Assembly: GCA_937922045.1 (NCBI GenBank)
Contig: CAKZXA010000076.1
Location: 1 to 64,000, forward strand
Length of the DNA: 64,000 nt
DNA from: an uncultured Acidimicrobiales bacterium
GTDB taxonomy: Bacteria > Actinomycetota > Acidimicrobiia > Acidimicrobiales > SZUA-35
Direction of reading: 5' to 3'
Of the stretch, positions 38,890 to 49,304 are shown piece after piece; the stretch's first letter is position 1; every line of letters begins with the position of its first letter. Position numbers and translations under genes: made by a program. Below the pieces are notes generated by a model, which saw nothing but the letters and a program-made list of their open reading frames with translations, ran no database searches and had not been told where the DNA came from.

Positions 38890-39130
38890 GGGTGGGGTAG
38901 TGGCCAAGCCATGTGTGCTGGGCTATTGCTGGTTGCGGTGGTCGTGACTCAAACTGGGACTGGCGTATTGCCTTCGTAGGACTTGTCCGACCACCGTTGC
39001 CAACACCGGCACAAGCTGGAGTGAGTGGCCTGATCAGGAGCATGACCACTGGTGATTCGGTGTGTCCCATCACAGTCTTGCCTATCTCCAACCCGGGCCG
39101 GTATCTGTCCAGCCCGACAAGGAGAACCCT
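38890..39130 (+). ncRNA. Candidate IS110 bridge-RNA leader
   Basis: The non-coding segment before the IS110 transposase contains nested stems: AGTGG-CCTGATCAGG-AGCATGA-CCACT (39023-39050 area) and GTGAT...ATCAC just after it. IS110-family elements are known to encode a structured bridge RNA in a non-coding end, which guides insertion. Position and structure fit; end points are guesses. Confidence 0.3.
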
Positions 39131-40189
39131 ATGGAAATGCTTGCAGACCAAGTTGATGTTGTCATCGGCGTCGACACCCATAAAGACACCCACACGGCGG
39201 CGATCGTCGAAGCGGCTACCGGTGCCAGCACTGAACATCGAACCGTGGCCACCAACCCACATGGGTACGCAGAGTTGATCGCAATGGCTGGCCAGCACGG
39301 CTCACGGCGGGCCTGGGCGATCGAGGGCGCCGGGAGTTACGGGGCAGGTCTGGTCCGCTACCTCGCCGCGAGCGGAGAACGAATCATTGAAGTCGATCGT
39401 CCGGGACGTCCAACCCGTCGTAATGGAGCCAAATCAGACAAGCTCGATGCAGTCCGAGCCGGACGTGAGGTGCTTGCCCGCAACCACCTGGCTCAGCCGC
39501 GGGCACAACAGGAACGGGCGGCATTGTCGGTTCTTCTTGCGGTCCGAAGCTCAGCGGTGGACAGTTCGAAGGTCGCTCAACAACAACTTCACGCCCTGAT
39601 AATCGCTGCACCAGATGAACTCCGCAGCCGCTTCCAGGGACTGTCTAGGACCAGAATGCTCGTTAAGGCTTCTCATTTGCGCATCAATTCGCGCTGGGAC
39701 ATCGAGACAAGTACTTACGCCGTGGCCATGCGCGAGGTCGCAAAGCGAGCGCTCACGCTTCGTGACACCGCAGCCGAACACGAACGCTCAATCCTCGGGC
39801 TCATCAAGTCGTGGCGCCCAGATCTCCTCGATGTCCAAGGAGTCGGCCCCATCGTCGCCGCTATCGTGCTCTGCGCCTGGTCGCATCCGGGGCGTTGCCG
39901 GAACGAGGCAGCGTTCGCAAGCCTCGCCGGAGCCGCACCGATTCCGGCATCGTCGGGCATGACTACACGCCACCGCCTCAACCGGTCCGGTGATCGACAG
40001 CTAAACCGTGCGCTGCACGTCGTCGCCCTTTCACGGTTGCGATATGACCCAGCGACACAAGAGTACGCCGAACGCCGCCAAGCAGAAGGCAAAACCAACC
40101 GAGAAATCAAGCGGTGCCTGAAACGCTATATCGCCCGGCAGCTCTTCCGACAGCTTGAAACACCACAAACCCGACTTGACAGACCATAG
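39131..40189 (+). CDS. IS110-family transposase (DEDD recombinase)
   Basis: A 352-residue IS110 transposase. The N-terminal DEDD RuvC-like domain has VVIGVDTHKDTH, WAIEGAGSYGAGL and AKSDKLDAV (acidic residues D, E, D, D). The C-terminal Transposase_20 domain has LLDVQGVGPIVAAIV and the serine region PASSGMTTRHRLNRSGDRQL. ATG 39131 follows GGAG by 6 bases. The ORF is full length, so the element may be active. As expected for IS110, no terminal inverted repeats are evident, so the exact ends are not called. It sits next to gene debris on both sides. Confidence 0.93.
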   Translation: MEMLADQVDVVIGVDTHKDTHTAAIVEAATGASTEHRTVATNPHGYAELIAMAGQHGSRRAWAIEGAGSYGAGLVRYLAASGERIIEVDRPGRPTRRNGAKSDKLDAVRAGREVLARNHLAQPRAQQERAALSVLLAVRSSAVDSSKVAQQQLHALIIAAPDELRSRFQGLSRTRMLVKASHLRINSRWDIETSTYAVAMREVAKRALTLRDTAAEHERSILGLIKSWRPDLLDVQGVGPIVAAIVLCAWSHPGRCRNEAAFASLAGAAPIPASSGMTTRHRLNRSGDRQLNRALHVVALSRLRYDPATQEYAERRQAEGKTNREIKRCLKRYIARQLFRQLETPQTRLDRP

Positions 40190-40250
40190 GAGCGTCCTGC
40201 TGAGCTGGCACCAATCGTGCAGGAGCAGGGGGGGACATTGTCTGACCCGT

Positions 40251-40340
40251 TCAGAACAGCTTGCGGTGCTCGAACTCGGCTCGATCAATCTCGCCGCGGG
40301 CGAAACGATCCTCCAACGTTTGCAAGGCTCGTTTTGATGA
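40251..40340 (-). pseudogene. Orphan SHOCT-domain tail
   Basis: On the minus strand the frame reads RALQTLEDRFARGEIDRAEF and ends EHRKLF at TGA 40251-40253. This is the SHOCT oligomerisation motif normally at the C-terminus of membrane or secreted proteins. Its N-terminal part is missing: the sequence upstream is the HxlR fragment on the other strand. A broken gene. Confidence 0.7.
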
Positions 40341-40494
40341 ACTGTTCGAGAGGATGAGCCCGGTGACCCTAACGACGCTGACGCGCCAGCTTCGAGAACT
40401 CGAGCGCGACGGCCTTGTGACGAGAACTCAGTTCAACGAGATACCACCACGGGTCGAATATGACATCACCGACACAGCGCAAAGCCAGCGTTGA
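40324..40494 (+). pseudogene. HxlR-family regulator fragment
   Basis: The frame reads ARFDELFERMSPVTLTTLTR, then QLRELERDGLVTRTQ and PPRVEYDITD. This is the wing and dimer part of an HxlR winged-helix regulator. The N-terminal helix is absent and replaced by the antisense SHOCT tail; the end (TAQSQR) is short. Non-functional remnant. Confidence 0.75.
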
Positions 40495-40551: not shown

Positions 40552-41673
40552 GTGATCACCCAAACGCTCGACATCTCCGCTGACGATTTCGCTGCCGGCA
40601 CCGGCTGGGACATCAAGCCTGAAGGCGCGTGTAAAGGCGACGTTTGTGTTCCGCTACCCGATGGCTACTCGGCAACTCACGCAGCAGATCGGCTCGGAAT
40701 GGCGGTCGTCAGAGACGACGCTTCCGGCCTGTCGGCCCTGGGCCCTGAGTCGCTTAGCGGACGAGCGCTCGTAACCGCTCAAGCCCCAGACGTCGTCCTT
40801 CCAGATCTCGACGGAAATGACTTCCACTTGTCTTCGCTGCGGGGTAAGAAAGTTGTTGTCGTAGCCTGGGCGCCCTATTGAGGCTGTCGCTACGACCTGC
40901 CAGGTTGGCAGGCACTGAGCGAAGAACTCGCACCCCTCGGCGTTGAGATCGTTACGGTCTCCCTTGAACTGAGCGACCCCGATGTTTCGCGCCCATTCAT
41001 CGAGGCGGCGAAACCGACACACCCGTCATTGCTGGATCCCAAGCACCAGCTTGATGCTCTCTTTGGCGTCGTCAATATTCCGAACATCATCTGGATCGAC
41101 GAGGCGGGCATGATCGTACGTCCGCCAGAACCAGGATGGCCACCCGGCGATGACTACCCGGACTGGCTTCGTGGGTTCGTCGATGACCGCGCCGCAGCTG
41201 CCGAGCGCAAGGCTGCGGAAATCGAAAACGACAACCCCGAACTCGCGGCTCGTATACGAGGTGGCCAGGACCGCAGTTCTTATCCTGACGCCATTCGTGA
41301 TTGGGCGCAGAAGGGCGCCGAGAGTGAGTTTGCGATGACGCCAGACCAGGTCTTGGATGCGTCGACAGACCGCGGCGTCGGCAAGAGCGAAGGGGCCGCT
41401 CACTTCGAACTGGCCAACCATCTCTGGACCATCGGCGATCGCGAAAGCGCGATCATGCACTTCAACGAAGCACACCGGTTGCAGCCCGACAACTGGACCT
41501 ACAAGCGCCAGGCGTGGTCGCTCGTTGGCAATGAGAACGCTGGTGGGGGCGAGCTAGGCCGATTCAATCAGGGCCCACTTCCCGGCGCCGAAGCGGATTG
41601 GCCATTTGACGGAAACTTCACCGCCGAGACATCCCGAACTCCAGCAGGCGACTACTACCCGAAAACGATGTAG
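40552..41673 (+). CDS. Putative selenocysteine-containing redoxin (in-frame TGA as Sec110) with TPR-like tail
   Basis: One reading frame from GTG 40552 to TAG 41671-41673 is interrupted only by TGA 40879-40881. Before it: MITQTLDISADDF, GACKGDVCVPLPDG, then APDVVLPDLDGNDFHLSSL and VVVAWAPY. After it: GCRYDLPGWQALSEELAPLG, VVNIPNIIWIDEAG, and a TPR-like helix pair (AAHFELANHLWTIGDRESAI). Upstream and downstream halves form one thioredoxin/AhpC-like domain, and the TGA falls exactly at the nucleophile position (xGC), where redoxins have Cys. A SECIS-like hairpin follows (40882-40922). So the product is probably a 373-residue selenoprotein, possibly a peroxidase or thiol reductase. The alternative is a Cys-to-stop mutation; nearby debris makes that worth excluding. 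The selA/B/C/D genes are not in the window. Confidence 0.72.
40882..40922 (+). promoter_or_regulatory. Candidate bacterial SECIS element
   Basis: Immediately after the in-frame TGA: lower stem TCGCT (40887-40891)/AGCGA (40918-40922), internal loop, upper stem CCTGCC/GGCAGG (40896-40901/40907-40912), and a 5-nt apical loop AGGTT. The loop GG is 22-23 nt past the TGA, within the known 16-37 nt range. The AGGU loop is like that of E. coli fdhF. Confidence 0.7.
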
Positions 41674-42284: not shown

Positions 42285-42332
42285 GATGAACCTCCGAACG
42301 GCACGTCGACAGATCTCCACGGTACCGCTTGC

Positions 42333-42352
42333 TTGGTCGACCCGCCGACCAA
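42333..42352. promoter_or_regulatory. Palindrome 1 in TetR-pfaD interval
   Basis: TTGGTCG-ACCCGC-CGACCAA: perfect 7-bp arms, centred about 60 bases from the TetR start. Candidate TetR operator. Confidence 0.5.
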
Positions 42353-42355
42353 CCA

Positions 42356-42391
42356 TTGGTGGTGTGCCATACTTTAAGGTATGGTGCGCCG
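42356..42391 (+). promoter_or_regulatory. Putative leaderless pfaD promoter with overlapping palindrome
   Basis: TTGGTG (42356-42361), an 18-nt spacer, and TATGGT (42380-42385) would place transcription start at or next to ATG 42392, which has no Shine-Dalgarno. CCATAC-TTTAAG-GTATGG (42367-42384) covers the -10 and could be a repressor site. Confidence 0.4.
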
Positions 42392-44011
42392 ATGGACATA
42401 GCGGTGAAGCACGAATCAGCCATCGCTGGGTGGGCCGCCACCGCCGCGCCTGCGTTCGGGGCAACCGAGATCCTCGGTGCGATCCAGCGAGTTCGCGAAG
42501 CCACCGCCGTCGTGACCGACCCCGCGACCGGCCGGGCCGGGATCGCTATCGACGGCACCCTCACTGCCGCACATCAGGCGGGGGCCTGGCCCGTAACCGC
42601 CGTTCTACCGCCGTTGTATCCCGAATGGCTTGGCGACCGCGGCTTCACAGAGATCCACGGAACCCGGTTTCCCTACGTCACCGGGGCGATGGCCAATGGC
42701 ATCGCTACCACCCATCTCGTCATCGAAACGGCTCGAGCTGGGTGTTTGGGATTCTTCGGTGCTGGCGGTCTGGCCTTCGAACGCGTGCGACATGCGGTCG
42801 ATGAGTTGGTCAGCGCCCTCGGCGAAACCGCTCCATGGGGATGCAACCTCATCCACTCACCGAACGAACCAGCGCTGGAAGCGGCGGTAGCGAACCTCTA
42901 CCTCGAACGCGGTGTTCGCCGGGTTTCCGCCGCGGCCTACATGGCTCTGACCCCCGCAATCGTTCGCTACGCCTACAGCGGCGTGCACCTCGACGGCCAC
43001 GGTGTCGTCCAACGACCAAACATGGTGTTGGCCAAGATCTCCCGTCCAGAGGTGGCCGCCCACTTCATGAACCCGGCCCCCGAGTCGCTGCTGGCACGTC
43101 TGGTCGCAACCGGCGAACTCACAGTCGCCGAGGCCCAGCTGGCCGCAACCCTCCCGGTAGCGGAGGATTTTGTCGTCGAAAGCGACAGTGGCGGCCATAC
43201 CGACAACCGCCCCCTGGGCCCCTTGTTCTCCGCCATCCAGTTCGTTCGCGACGATGTTTGCGCCAGGCGCGGCTACCACCGTCCGATCCGGCTTGGGGCG
43301 GCCGGAGGCATCGGTACGCCACAAGCCGTGGCTTCGGCATTCGCCCTCGGCGCATCCTTCGTTTTGACCGGCACCATCAACGAGTCCTGCGTCGAATCTG
43401 GGCTGTCATCAGAGGGCAAGGAGATGCTGGCTCAGGCTGGGCTCGCCGACATCGCAATGGCGCCTGCAGCCGACATGTTCGAACTCGGCGTCGATCTTCA
43501 GGTGTTGCAGCGCGGCACCATGTTCGCCCCCCGAGCCAAACAGCTCTACCGGCTCTACCGCGCCTATCCCTCGCTGGAGGCCATACCGGCCGACGAAGTC
43601 AGTGAACTCGAAACGAAAACGCTTGGGATGACCCTCGACGAGTGTTGGGCCTCGACCCGTACCTTCTGGATGGATCGCGACCCTGACGAGGTGGTCAAAG
43701 CGGAAGCCGATCCCCGCCACAAGATGGCCCTCACCTTCCGCAGTTACCTTGGACAGTCGAGCCGCTGGGCTATCGATGGACAATCCGACCGCCGCCTCGA
43801 CTATCAGATCTGGTGCGGACCAGCAATGGGGGCGTTCAATGCCTGGACCGAAGGATCGTTCCTTGCCGAACCCGCAAACCGCACCGTCTCACAGATCGCC
43901 AAAAACATGCTCGAAGGCGCGGCTGTCTTGACCCGCGCTCAGCAGCTCCGAAGCTACGGCGTAGCGATTCCCGCCGCGGCCTTCAACTACCGACCCCGCC
44001 CCCTCGACTGA
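42392..44011 (+). CDS. pfaD: PfaD-like trans-acting enoyl reductase
   Basis: A 539-residue FMN-dependent enoyl reductase of the PUFA-synthase PfaD type (nitronate-monooxygenase/FabK-like TIM barrel). Signature stretches are PYVTGAMANGIATTHLV, AGCLGFFGAGGL, ESDSGGHTDNRPLGPL (flavin region), RLGAAGGIGTPQAVASA and GASFVLTGTINESCVESGLS. In PUFA synthases it reduces trans-enoyl-ACP during chain growth. It is the first gene of the operon; pfaA starts 13 bases after it. ATG 42392 is chosen because the upstream in-frame extension lies over the promoter-like element. Family certain; product of the pathway unknown. Confidence 0.92.
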   Translation: MDIAVKHESAIAGWAATAAPAFGATEILGAIQRVREATAVVTDPATGRAGIAIDGTLTAAHQAGAWPVTAVLPPLYPEWLGDRGFTEIHGTRFPYVTGAMANGIATTHLVIETARAGCLGFFGAGGLAFERVRHAVDELVSALGETAPWGCNLIHSPNEPALEAAVANLYLERGVRRVSAAAYMALTPAIVRYAYSGVHLDGHGVVQRPNMVLAKISRPEVAAHFMNPAPESLLARLVATGELTVAEAQLAATLPVAEDFVVESDSGGHTDNRPLGPLFSAIQFVRDDVCARRGYHRPIRLGAAGGIGTPQAVASAFALGASFVLTGTINESCVESGLSSEGKEMLAQAGLADIAMAPAADMFELGVDLQVLQRGTMFAPRAKQLYRLYRAYPSLEAIPADEVSELETKTLGMTLDECWASTRTFWMDRDPDEVVKAEADPRHKMALTFRSYLGQSSRWAIDGQSDRRLDYQIWCGPAMGAFNAWTEGSFLAEPANRTVSQIAKNMLEGAAVLTRAQQLRSYGVAIPAAAFNYRPRPLD

Positions 44012-44024
44012 TTCGGCTCATCTC

Positions 44025-47000
44025 TTGCACCACAACCACGACTCCAAGCGCCCACCGATCGCCGTCGTTGGCGTGTCGGCCCTGTTTCCTGGATCTGTCG
44101 ATTCGACAGGATTTTGGGACGACATTCTTCGCGGCACCGATCGCATGAGCGCGGTACCGGCCAGCCATTGGTTGATCGATGACCACTACGATCCGGACAT
44201 GCTGGCGCCGGACAAGACCTACGGGCGTCGTGGTGGCTTTCTCGACCCAATCGACCTTGACCTCATGAAGTTCGGCATCCCTCCGGTGGCGGTTCCGACC
44301 ACCGACACAGCCCAGCTGCTCGCCCTCATCGTGGCCCAACGAGTACTCGACGACGCGGTCACCGGGCAGTTCACCGAGCTCGACCGCACTCGAGCCTCGG
44401 TGATCCTCGGCGTCACCTCGGGCCAGGAACTTCTCGGTGCGATGGCCAGCAGAATGAATCGACCGATGTGGCTGCAAGGTATGCGGCGCGCCGGTGTGCC
44501 CGAAGACGTCGCCCTCGAAGCATGTGAACAGATCGCCGACCTACACCCAGCGTGGCAGGAGAGCACGTTTCCTGGGCTCCTCGGGAATGTGGTGGCGGGG
44601 CGTATCGCCAATCGCCTCGACCTCGGAGGTACCAACTGTGTGACCGACGCGGCATGCGCCTCATCGTTCTCAGCGTTGTCGATGGGGGTCAATGAGCTTT
44701 ACCTCGGCGACAGCGATCTCGTCATCGCTGGCGGCGTCGACACGATGAACGACATCTTCATGTACATGTGCTTTTCAAAGACACCAGCATTGTCGCCGTC
44801 CGAAGACATCCGCCCCTTCTCCGACAAGGCCGACGGCACGATGCTCGGCGAAGGCATCGGGATGGTTGCGCTCAAGAGACTCGAAGACGCCGAGCGAGAC
44901 GGCAACCACATCTACTGCATCGTCAATGCCGTCGGTGCCAGCTCCGATGGCCGCTCAAAGAGCGTCTACGCACCGGTCTCTGAGGGCCAAGCGCGAGCGC
45001 TCACGAACACGTATGCGAAGGCCGGCTATCAGCCCGACACGGTCGAACTGGTCGAGGCTCATGGCACCGGCACCGTGGCCGGCGATGCCGCAGAGTTCGG
45101 TGGTCTTGAATTGGCCTTCGACCGTTCCGGCCGCGTCGATCGCCAATGGTGCTCCCTCGGTTCGGTGAAGAGCCAGATCGGACACACAAAGGCAGCGGCC
45201 GGCGCCGCTGGTCTCGTCAAGGTCATTATGGCCCTGCACCATAAGGTGCTGCCGCAAACAGCAAAGATCGACCAACCAAATCCGAAGCTCGATCTCGAGG
45301 CCTCTCCCTTTCACCTCAACACCATGACGCGGCCATGGGTGCGAGGATCAAACCACGAGCGCCGGGGCTCGGTGAGTTCGTTCGGTTTCGGCGGCTCCAA
45401 CTTCCACGTCGCCATGTCGGAGTATGTCGGTTCTGGTGTCCGCGCCCCTCGTCTTCGCACGACCGACGCTGAGCTCGTCGTGCTCCAGGGCACCGACGGC
45501 AGCGACATCATGGCCCAGGCCCGTGAACATCTGGCGGCCTGCTCAGCCGGCGGATACCTCGCGTGGCTCGCCCACTCGACCCAGGCGGCGTATGACCCGA
45601 GCGCCAACGCTCGGCTCGCCCTCGTCGCTGTTGACGCTACGGATCTTGAGACCAAGCTCGGTGCCGCCATCGACCGCATCGCCGCCGACCCAGCAGCCGC
45701 CTTCTCAACCCCAACAAGGGTGCACTACGGCCTGGGCGCCCACCGTGGTGATGTCGCCTTCGTCTTCCCTGGGCAGGGCAGTCAGTACCTGCATATGGGG
45801 TCTGGTCTCGCCACCCATTTCGATCAGGCCATCAAGCCGTGGAATGTAGCCGCTGACCTCGACGGGGACGGCGACACGTTGCAGGGCGTGGTGTTCCCGG
45901 TTCCACGTTTCGAGGAGAACGCCGCTGAACAGCAGGCCGAGAGGCTGACGGCCACCCGCTGGGCCCAACCCGCCATTGGGGCGACAAGCCTCAGCTACCT
46001 ACGCATGCTGCGACAGATCGGGCTTGAGGCCGCACACGTCGGTGGCCATAGTTTCGGTGAGATCACCGCTCTACATGCCGCTGGTGTTTTCTCTGAGGTC
46101 GACATGCTGCGCGTGGCGCGGCGGCGCGGGGAGCTGATGGCTGAGGCCGCACAGACCCCCGGATCGATGACGGCTGTGGCTGCAACCATCGACGAGGTGC
46201 GGACCCTCGTTCAACAATCGGGGATCGACGTTGTCGTGGCCAACCACAACCACCACGGCCAGGTGGTTCTCTCCGGACCAACGACAGCGATCGACGAGGT
46301 CGAAGGCGTGCTCGGTTCCGCCGGGCTAACGTTCAAGCGTCTGCCGGTGGCGACAGCCTTCCACTCCCCTGTCGTCAGCGCGGCGAGTGGAGCCTTCACC
46401 CGATCACTCGACTCGATCAGCGTCGAACCGGCCACGATCCCGGTCTACGCCAACGAGACGGCCGCCGTCTACCCGATCGGCGGCGCGGAGGTCCGCAATC
46501 AGCTCGGTCGTCAACTCGCCAACCCTGTCCGCTTCGTTGAAATGATTCAAGCAATGCACGACAACGGTGCCCGCACCTTTGTTGAGGTCGGCCCAGGATC
46601 GACCCTCACCGGTCTCGTCGACCGCATCCTCGACGAAAGCGACTACAGCGCCATTGCTCTCGACAAGAAGAAGGCATCCGGCTTGGGCGCCTTCCTCGGG
46701 GGTCTGGCCCAGCTTGCAGCCCGCGGTGTCGCCATGGACCTCGGTTCGCTCTGGAAGGAATACGCCGACGTCGAGAACCCAGCCGAAGTCGTCGCTCCGA
46801 AGCTCACTATTGCCATCAACGGGGCCAATCATGGCAAGCCGTACCCACCTGCAGACCTCGGCGAGCTCGTCGGCCCAAACGTCACCGCTCCAAAGACCAT
46901 CGCTAGCCACGATCCACCGACTCCCCCAGCACCTGCCCCCACCCCTGTCACACCTCAACCTGTTCCTGAACCTGTTCCTGCCCCGCTCGCCGTAGCGGCC

Positions 47001-49304
47001 CCAACAACTGATCGGACCCAACCCATGGTCACGAGCCAAACCTCTGTCCCTGTACCCGCCGCCGTCCATGCCAACGGTGCTGCCCCGAGCACCGGGGTTC
47101 TCGCTGCCTACCAGTCGGTACAAGAACACACCGCTGAGGCCCACGCCGAGTATCTCCGCTCCACTGCCCTGGCCCACACCGCCTTCATGACCGCTGCCCA
47201 GCAAGGCCTCGCGGTTCTTGGCCAGCTTGCAGGTGGCTCCGGCGCGGCACCCCCCACCGTTCCCGCACCACCGCCCCTCGCCCCCGTAATCTCTCCTGCA
47301 CCTCCACCAACACCTGCACCAACACCTCCCCCGGCTCCGGTCCACGTTCCAGTTCCCCCTCCACGTCCCTCGGCTCCGGTTGCGGCATCCGCCCCGGCGC
47401 CGACGGTCGCTGCCGCCCCGGCGCCTCTCACACCCACACCTGTACCCGCACCTGTCATCTCTGCACCAGCGCCTTTACCGATCGCCACTCCGGCGCCTAG
47501 CGGACAAGCGTTGACCTCCGACGAACTTATGGCGCTGCTGTTGTCGGTGGTTGCCGACAAGACCGGGTATCCATCGGAGATGTTGACGATGGAGATGGAA
47601 CTCGAAGGTGACCTCGGTATCGACTCCATCAAGCGGGTCGAGATCCTTAGCGCCATGCAGGACGAGGTCCCGACGTTACCCGAGGTCGATACGTCTGTGA
47701 TGGCAGAGCTGATAACGCTCGGCCAGATCGTCGACTACATGTTCGGCCAAATCAAGGGAGGTGACACGCCCCCTTTTGATGGTGGGGCAACCGCCCCCGC
47801 TGCCATCATGTCTACTGCCGTCACGCCCGCTCCGCTCGGCCGGTTCCGACTCCGCTCTGTGGCGGCGCACGCAAGCGGCGAACCGCTGCCGGGCCTCCGA
47901 GGTTCAACCATCGCCGTCGTCGACGACGGTACCGGCATAGCTCCAGCCCTCGCCACCTTGCTCGTGGCCGCAGGCATCTCCGCCACCGTGGCCGAAACGG
48001 TCGACAACTCGGTCGATGGGGCCATCTTCCTCGGAGGCCTCCGGCCAATCGCAACAGTCGACGACGCGTTGGCGGTGAACCGTCAGGCCTTCGTCATCGC
48101 TCGGTCACTAGCAACGGGTCCTAAACCGGCGCGCCTACTCGTCACCGTGTCCGATCTCGGAGGCGACTTCGGCATCGGTAAACCCAACCACCTTCATGCC
48201 TGGAGTGCTGGGCTCACAGCACTCATCCGAACCGCAGCGATCGAGTGGCCAGATGCCAGCCTGCGGGCCATTGACATCGACCATGCCGATAGCGACGCTG
48301 GCGCCATCGCCGCGGCGATCGCTGAAGAGTTGCTCACCGGGGGCACCGAGCTCGAGATCGGTCTCGCGGCCGACGGCAGGCGGACGACGCTGCAAAGCGA
48401 ACCAGCGGCCGTCTCGGTGGGATCGTGCCCACTAGGCGCCTCCGACGTCGTGGTCGTGTCGGGAGGTGGCCGAGGTGTCACCGCCGCCACAATGATCGAA
48501 CTGGCCCGGGCATCGGGCGCAACCTTCGTACTGCTCGGACGGTCAGCGCTGGCCGACGAGCCTCCATCTTGCGCAACCGCCACCAACGATGCCGAGCTCA
48601 AGAAGGTCTTGCTCGCGGAGGCAACCGCCTCAGACACACCCATCACGCCGCCAGAGTTGGCTCGCCGATCCTCACAGATCCTGGCGGCCCGGGAGGTTCG
48701 CCAAACGCTGGCCGCCATCGAGGAAACCGGTGGACGGGCGCACTACGTCCCCGTCGACATCACCGATCGCGAGGCTGTCGCGACGACGTTGGACTCGGTG
48801 CGAGCGGAACGAGGACCGATCACCGCTGTCGTCCACGGCGCTGGCGTGCTCGCCGACAAGCTGATCGCCGACAAGTCTGACGCCGCCTTCGCCTCCGTTT
48901 TCGACACAAAGGTTCTCGGCCTTCGAGTGCTACTCGACACGACTCGCCACGATTCGTTGAAGGTGCTGTGCCTGTTCTCATCGGTCGCAGCCCGCACGGG
49001 GAACCGAGGCCAGGTCGACTACGCAATGGCCAACGAAATCTTGAACAAGGTCGCAGTCGCAGAGCACGTTCGCCGAGGGTCGGGTTGTGTCGTCAAATCA
49101 TTCGGGTGGGGGCCCTGGGATGGCGGCATGGTCAGCCCCTCGCTCAAGGCTCACTTCGAGGCGATGGGCACAACGCTCATCCCTCTCGATGCTGGATCTC
49201 GCATGCTGGTCGACGAGCTCTCAAGCCCGCAGACCGATGAGGTCGAACTCGTTATCGGTGGCGGCGTGCTCCCAGCCAGCATCGTGACTTCCGGGCATTC
49301 GTGA
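44025..49304 (+). CDS. pfaA: PfaA-like PUFA/polyketide synthase subunit: KS-AT-ACP-KR
   Basis: A 1759-residue type I iterative synthase subunit. KS (about 10-450): Cys211 in DAACASSF, His in VEAHGTGTVAGD and GSVKSQIGHTKAAAG. AT (about 575-880): FVFPGQGSQYLHMG and GGHSFGE with Ser676. A Pro/Ala linker follows (about 960-1160). A single ACP (about 1165-1245) has DLGIDSIKRVEIL with Ser1201 as the phosphopantetheine site. KR (about 1270-1755): VVSGGGRGVT, Ser1653 and Tyr1666 (VDYAMAN). Known PUFA synthases carry four to nine tandem ACPs; one is unusual. The KR ends the protein, and no DH follows. The start is TTG 44025, 13 bases after pfaD. Confidence 0.94.
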   Translation: MHHNHDSKRPPIAVVGVSALFPGSVDSTGFWDDILRGTDRMSAVPASHWLIDDHYDPDMLAPDKTYGRRGGFLDPIDLDLMKFGIPPVAVPTTDTAQLLALIVAQRVLDDAVTGQFTELDRTRASVILGVTSGQELLGAMASRMNRPMWLQGMRRAGVPEDVALEACEQIADLHPAWQESTFPGLLGNVVAGRIANRLDLGGTNCVTDAACASSFSALSMGVNELYLGDSDLVIAGGVDTMNDIFMYMCFSKTPALSPSEDIRPFSDKADGTMLGEGIGMVALKRLEDAERDGNHIYCIVNAVGASSDGRSKSVYAPVSEGQARALTNTYAKAGYQPDTVELVEAHGTGTVAGDAAEFGGLELAFDRSGRVDRQWCSLGSVKSQIGHTKAAAGAAGLVKVIMALHHKVLPQTAKIDQPNPKLDLEASPFHLNTMTRPWVRGSNHERRGSVSSFGFGGSNFHVAMSEYVGSGVRAPRLRTTDAELVVLQGTDGSDIMAQAREHLAACSAGGYLAWLAHSTQAAYDPSANARLALVAVDATDLETKLGAAIDRIAADPAAAFSTPTRVHYGLGAHRGDVAFVFPGQGSQYLHMGSGLATHFDQAIKPWNVAADLDGDGDTLQGVVFPVPRFEENAAEQQAERLTATRWAQPAIGATSLSYLRMLRQIGLEAAHVGGHSFGEITALHAAGVFSEVDMLRVARRRGELMAEAAQTPGSMTAVAATIDEVRTLVQQSGIDVVVANHNHHGQVVLSGPTTAIDEVEGVLGSAGLTFKRLPVATAFHSPVVSAASGAFTRSLDSISVEPATIPVYANETAAVYPIGGAEVRNQLGRQLANPVRFVEMIQAMHDNGARTFVEVGPGSTLTGLVDRILDESDYSAIALDKKKASGLGAFLGGLAQLAARGVAMDLGSLWKEYADVENPAEVVAPKLTIAINGANHGKPYPPADLGELVGPNVTAPKTIASHDPPTPPAPAPTPVTPQPVPEPVPAPLAVAAPTTDRTQPMVTSQTSVPVPAAVHANGAAPSTGVLAAYQSVQEHTAEAHAEYLRSTALAHTAFMTAAQQGLAVLGQLAGGSGAAPPTVPAPPPLAPVISPAPPPTPAPTPPPAPVHVPVPPPRPSAPVAASAPAPTVAAAPAPLTPTPVPAPVISAPAPLPIATPAPSGQALTSDELMALLLSVVADKTGYPSEMLTMEMELEGDLGIDSIKRVEILSAMQDEVPTLPEVDTSVMAELITLGQIVDYMFGQIKGGDTPPFDGGATAPAAIMSTAVTPAPLGRFRLRSVAAHASGEPLPGLRGSTIAVVDDGTGIAPALATLLVAAGISATVAETVDNSVDGAIFLGGLRPIATVDDALAVNRQAFVIARSLATGPKPARLLVTVSDLGGDFGIGKPNHLHAWSAGLTALIRTAAIEWPDASLRAIDIDHADSDAGAIAAAIAEELLTGGTELEIGLAADGRRTTLQSEPAAVSVGSCPLGASDVVVVSGGGRGVTAATMIELARASGATFVLLGRSALADEPPSCATATNDAELKKVLLAEATASDTPITPPELARRSSQILAAREVRQTLAAIEETGGRAHYVPVDITDREAVATTLDSVRAERGPITAVVHGAGVLADKLIADKSDAAFASVFDTKVLGLRVLLDTTRHDSLKVLCLFSSVAARTGNRGQVDYAMANEILNKVAVAEHVRRGSGCVVKSFGWGPWDGGMVSPSLKAHFEAMGTTLIPLDAGSRMLVDELSSPQTDEVELVIGGGVLPASIVTSGHS

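Follow-up and report, generated by a model that had tools for sequence, protein, structure and literature searches.

Reading a redoxin frame across TGA 40879-40881

Within the window (the whole 64,000-nucleotide stretch of an uncultured Acidimicrobiales genome that was analyzed here), a redoxin reading frame is interrupted by a single TGA at the position of the expected nucleophile, which raises the question of whether this codon is read as selenocysteine (Sec) and what kind of protein the gene encodes. Translation of positions 40552 to 41673 with the TGA read through yields 373 residues with one internal stop, and the frame ends at a TAG stop codon at 41671 to 41673. The TGA at 40879 to 40881 corresponds to residue 110 (U110) in the context WAPY-U-GCRYDLP. 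The 263 codons 3′ of it are stop-free, for which the chance is ∼3e-4 in random sequence with the GC content of the window (0.615). Homologues support the GTG start at 40552, where their first residues (MI...) align. The features of the locus are as follows.

40552..41673, + strand: complete coding sequence of the predicted WAxxUGC_long selenoprotein (373 amino acids; GTG start, in-frame Sec TGA, TAG stop)
40630..40647, + strand: N-terminal motif C27-x4-C32 (EGACKGDVCVPLP), kept in at least 90% of the homologues
40774..41130, + strand: ResA/TlpA-like redoxin domain, residues about 75 to 193 (Pfam AhpC-TSA at 75 to 189; ResA matches with Foldseek)
40879..40881, + strand: TGA, predicted to be decoded as Sec (U110) at the catalytic position of the thioredoxin fold (site survey, tRNA anticodons, AlphaFold model)
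40885..40887, + strand: TGT codon for Cys112, the second redox residue of U-G-C, invariant in the alignment
40896..40912, + strand: putative SECIS apical hairpin CCUGCCA-GGU-UGGCAGG, overlapping codons L116-P-G-W-Q120 (fold; synonymous-codon constraint)
41482..41517, + strand: C-terminal motif QPDNWTYKRQAW, residues 311 to 322, in a helical TPR-like region (alignment; weak TPR matches)

Orthologues with 76 to 88% identity align with all 373 residues, continuously across the TGA. Compared with ten orthologues, dN/dS was 0.03 to 0.11 on the 5′ side of the TGA (a range that leaves out 2 of the 10 N-part comparisons, which were saturated at synonymous sites) and 0.05 to 0.10 on the 3′ side, and both halves of the gene are thus under strong purifying selection. 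The full-length alignment and the low dN/dS on both sides indicate one gene rather than two ORFs, and a chance fusion of ORFs was rejected on the same grounds. The initial annotation had described a single frame running through the TGA, with equally gene-like codons on both sides and a product of about 40 kDa, and all of this is borne out, the size fitting 373 residues.

The neighboring genes (an IS110 transposase, an HxlR-type regulator fragment, a TetR regulator, and a polyunsaturated fatty acid [PUFA]/polyketide-synthase-like cluster) are of little help for assigning a role to the gene. Directly 5′ of it, positions 39062 to 40494 contain the IS110-family transposase followed by the HxlR regulator fragment, possibly an insertion scar. 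At positions 42329 to 49304, multidomain KS-AT-ACP-KR genes accompany a PfaD-like gene (NMO with a FabD helical insert), a set that looks like a PUFA synthase cluster, here in an actinobacterium.

Selenocysteine machinery and the TGA site in homologues

The components of Sec insertion were located by family searches of the source assembly (4.88 Mb, 128 contigs, 97% complete). A tRNA-Sec gene (67.1 bits) with the anticodon TCA, also called as tRNA-Sec, lies at the extreme start of contig C89, beginning at base 2; selB adjoins selA on contig C103, and selD, scoring above the cutoff and containing one in-frame TGA, is located on contig C14. The four genes selA, selB, selC, and selD, for which the initial annotation had proposed a search, are therefore all present in the same assembly, and tRNA-Sec, SelA, SelB, and SelD together make up the set expected of a bacterium that reads UGA as Sec. 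The TGA of selD (C14:84500-86600) sits in MTRRLTEFSHGAG-U-AAKL (GAG-U-AAKL), which we take to be the known Sec/Cys site of SelD; since selD carries this in-frame TGA, SelD is very likely a selenoprotein itself. The same contig also encodes a Bcp-like peroxiredoxin with an in-frame TGA (KASTPG-TGA-TLEGEG; C14:113078-113386), a probable Sec peroxiredoxin, and the same arrangement was observed in a relative (L117).

We then surveyed the Sec site in 87 aligned loci, which are not all independent, some genomes being represented twice under different locus numbers. The codon was TGA in 78 loci, Cys (TGC or TGT) in 7, and TAG in 1; the remaining outlier, from Rubrobacter marinus, appeared in tblastn to have neither Sec nor Cys, which was ruled out as a frame slip, the TGA being present at the motif in another frame. 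Four of four further stop-free homologues have Cys at this site, so that the pairing of Sec with Cys that is typical of bacterial selenoproteins is found here at the UGA. Neither a genome without sel genes nor homologues without Cys or Sec at residue 110, two of the outcomes that the initial annotation had named as counting against Sec, was encountered.

Among 99 relatives, tRNA-Sec was detected in 44 of the 50 genomes with the TGA form and in 23 of the 49 others (Fisher's exact test, P ∼1e-5, not corrected for relatedness). The six TGA-form genomes in which it was not detected are all draft assemblies, four of them 81 to 87% complete. In Frankia sp. QA3, Cys occupies the Sec site, and the best match of this genome to the tRNA-Sec model is a tRNA-Ser. 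The TAG was found in the homologue of Geodermatophilus sp. TF02-6 (L031:3334), the genome of which contains an RF01852 match (65.3 bits) with the anticodon CTA according to ARAGORN; because of this anticodon, ARAGORN labels the gene, which belongs to the tRNA-Sec family, as tRNA-Pyl. UAG-directed Sec with a CUA tRNA-Sec is described for the Geodermatophilaceae in PMC5330540, which cites Mukai et al. 2016. The AhpC selenoprotein of Blastococcus saxobsidens mentioned there likewise combines a Sec TAG with a CUA tRNA-Sec, a likeness to the Geodermatophilus homologue that lies in codon and anticodon, family membership apart. It is difficult to account for a joint change of codon and anticodon at this residue other than by Sec insertion, and the Geodermatophilus orthologue is a clean, natural codon-swap confirmation for the family.

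These data also bear on two other ways of accounting for the interrupted frame. A nonsense mutation or sequencing error that splits an ordinary redoxin gene would leave a pseudogene with just such a TGA in its frame, but dozens of species from several phyla share the TGA at this site, selection remains purifying on its 3′ side, and the genome has the full Sec machinery; with TGA, Cys, and TAG conserved at one site, we regard the pseudogene as refuted and give it practically no credence. The frame would likewise be open if TGA had been reassigned throughout the genome to Trp or another amino acid. Such a code variant is at odds with the presence of tRNA-Sec, SelA, SelB, and SelD, with the substitution of Cys in homologues, with the TAG and CUA tRNA-Sec in Geodermatophilus, and with the neighboring genes, which are called with table 11 without any TGA readthrough, and we consider it extremely improbable.

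A hairpin under synonymous-codon constraint

Folding of positions 40870 to 40930 predicted the hairpin at 40896 to 40912, the loop of which (GGU, with a G at the apex as expected for a bacterial SECIS element) starts 21 nt past the TGA. Its fold z-score of −1.6 is modest for this single sequence, and an Rfam search of the hairpin region returned no SECIS-like or other family. When 45-nt folding energies were compared with those of synonymous shuffles, mean z-scores were −0.81 for Sec-form genes, −0.54 for Cys-form genes, and −0.39 for a control stretch, so that mean folding energy hardly distinguishes Sec from Cys genes. Because the folding-energy signal is weak, the case for a SECIS element rests on codon constraint.

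Codon choice after the TGA was analyzed in 71 distinct Sec-form genes and 16 Cys-form genes. In the Sec-form genes, 69 of 71 Leu+6 codons are CTG (background, 42%), and 67 of 68 Pro+7 codons are CCC or CCA (49%). At position +8, all 36 Gly codons are GGG or GGT (36%), without a single case of the usual GGC, and 34 of 35 Val codons are GTG (40%); of 70 Gln+10 codons, 69 are CAG (78%). The constrained bases at +6 to +10 coincide with the hairpin stem CUGCC/GGCAG and the loop. In Cys-form genes, Pro+7 is CCG in seven of eight and position +8 is mostly Leu, by which the loop G is lost. The codon pattern points to selection at the RNA level that accompanies Sec and is relaxed in Cys-bearing homologues.

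The hairpin recurs 3′ of the TGA (CCTGCCCGGGTGGCAGG) in a second full-length WAxxUGC_long gene of the same genome (C4:133953-135041, minus strand), which reads WAPY-TGA-GCARDLPGWQ.

Family, fold, and predicted redox function

The 373-residue protein matches NF041054 (WAxxUGC_long, ResA-like WAxxUGC motif-containing protein; NCBIfam, equivalog) with 433.0 bits (435.5 if the start is read as Met; cutoff, 300) over about residues 1 to 371 and model positions 1 to 351 of 354; all 35 aligned homologues hit this model too. The WAxx[U/C]GC motif of the family is found at residues 106 to 112 (WAPY-TGA-GC), and the protein shares the full length and U-G-C motif of the family, from which it differs by ordinary sequence divergence only. 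It is therefore one more member of a described family, and the claim of a probable new selenoprotein in the initial annotation does not hold: NF041054 covers the full-length family with its motif, and published accounts of UGC-containing Prx/TlpA-like selenoproteins date back to 2008. "Prx-like (UGC-containing)" selenoproteins (46 sequences) were described in the 2008 Global Ocean Sampling selenoproteome, where they were more common in nonmarine samples (PMC2398784), and later reviews list a "UGC-containing Prx-like protein" (PMC9312934) and a "UGC-containing TlpA disulfide reductase family protein" (PMC13188914). The proteins in these three sources have an AhpC-TSA/TlpA-like domain with Sec in UGC, as does the protein studied here; they were matched by description and may include shorter UGC relatives. 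In this literature the UGC family appears under such other names, and not as "WAxxUGC."

NF041054 was matched above the cutoff in 13 of 397 sampled genomes of the phylum, nearly all with an internal TGA. An Ilumatobacteraceae metagenome-assembled genome (L026:2244 and 3334) has two tandem WAxxUGC selenoprotein genes ∼1.1 kb apart, and five Frankia loci (L035, L040, L042, L045, and L047) have a second, Cys-form copy ∼2.5 kb downstream. Among cultured relatives, Ilumatobacter nonamiensis (L027) also has the gene. A search of plasmids returned only distant redoxins and stand-alone C-terminal domains; on the Rhodococcus plasmids NZ_CP063236.1 and NZ_CP044283.1, genes annotated as "hypothetical protein" match residues 244 to 338 with 45% identity, without the redoxin part.

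The ResA/TlpA-like domain lies between family-specific N-terminal and helical C-terminal domains. Its best Pfam model is AhpC-TSA (57 bits; AhpC-TSA/Redoxin, residues 75 to 189), and Pfam matches to TPR near the C terminus are weak. In the homologue alignment, W106, G111, and C112 do not vary, and neither do 11 of the 12 positions of QPDNWTYKRQAW; the twelfth, D313, is nearly invariant. In an AlphaFold model based on the 35-sequence alignment (mean pLDDT, 92.7), U110 immediately precedes the helix 111-129, at the classic active-site position of the thioredoxin fold. Together with the Sec machinery, the TGA, Cys, and TAG homologues, and the SECIS-like hairpin, this strongly supports the predicted reading of TGA 40879-40881 as selenocysteine at the redoxin nucleophile, as had been proposed at the outset.

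The best fold matches in the PDB are Bacillus ResA (Foldseek E value, 1e-10; TM-score on the target, 0.7 to 0.8), consistent with a ResA-type thioredoxin fold, and PDB sequence matches are ResA, TlpA, and StoA. The protein shares the fold and redoxin domain of these three but differs from them in having UxC instead of CxxC, Sec for the nucleophilic Cys, and extra N- and C-terminal domains. Since U-G-C has a single spacer residue, it falls outside the CxxC definition of ResA/TlpA, and the NCBIfam ResA score of 54.5 is below the cutoff of 170. The protein is predicted to work like ResA/TlpA yet forms its own family.

Sec often favors peroxidase chemistry, and with AhpC-TSA as the top Pfam model, the protein might instead be a selenium peroxidase of the AhpC/peroxiredoxin type. 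The name Prx-like given to the UGC family in the 2008 survey (PMC2398784) would agree with this. However, the peroxidatic motif PxxxTxxC is absent, the sequence at U110 being VAWAPYUGC; WAPY-U-GC corresponds to the WAxxCxxC site of ResA/TlpA; and the best partial NCBIfam, PDB sequence, and PDB fold matches are mostly thiol-disulfide oxidoreductases. We therefore consider a peroxidase unlikely. Judging from fold and motif, the protein is most likely a cytosolic thiol-disulfide oxidoreductase/reductase built on a ResA/TlpA-like domain.

From the comparative evidence, the ribosome would read TGA 40879-40881 as Sec by means of the cell's own tRNA-Sec(UCA), SelA, SelD, and SelB, with the SECIS hairpin (apical stem-loop 40896-40912) recruiting SelB. 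U110, at the start of the first helix of the thioredoxin fold, would then attack a disulfide or oxidized sulfur substrate, and Cys112, two residues on, would resolve the U110 adduct, giving a selenenylsulfide in U-G-C. A donor would re-reduce the protein, possibly via the conserved N-terminal cysteines C27 and C32, a possible extra redox pair as suggested by their conservation. In our view, it is very probable that the product is a selenoprotein belonging to the known WAxxUGC_long family, with Sec decoded in this way. Much more tentatively, the long UGC family might represent redox enzymes of a separate type, with UxC acting together with C27-x4-C32 and the almost invariant C-terminal QPDNWTYKRQAW domain as an internal relay or partner-binding module on a substrate unlike those of ResA/TlpA, a possible although doubtful extension.

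The annotation of the locus is corrected to one 373-residue selenoprotein in place of two truncated ORFs. The finding also shows that selenocysteine is in use in this actinobacterial lineage (Acidimicrobiales/Ilumatobacteraceae type), the genome encoding two WAxxUGC family members, a SelD that very likely contains Sec itself, and a candidate Sec peroxiredoxin.
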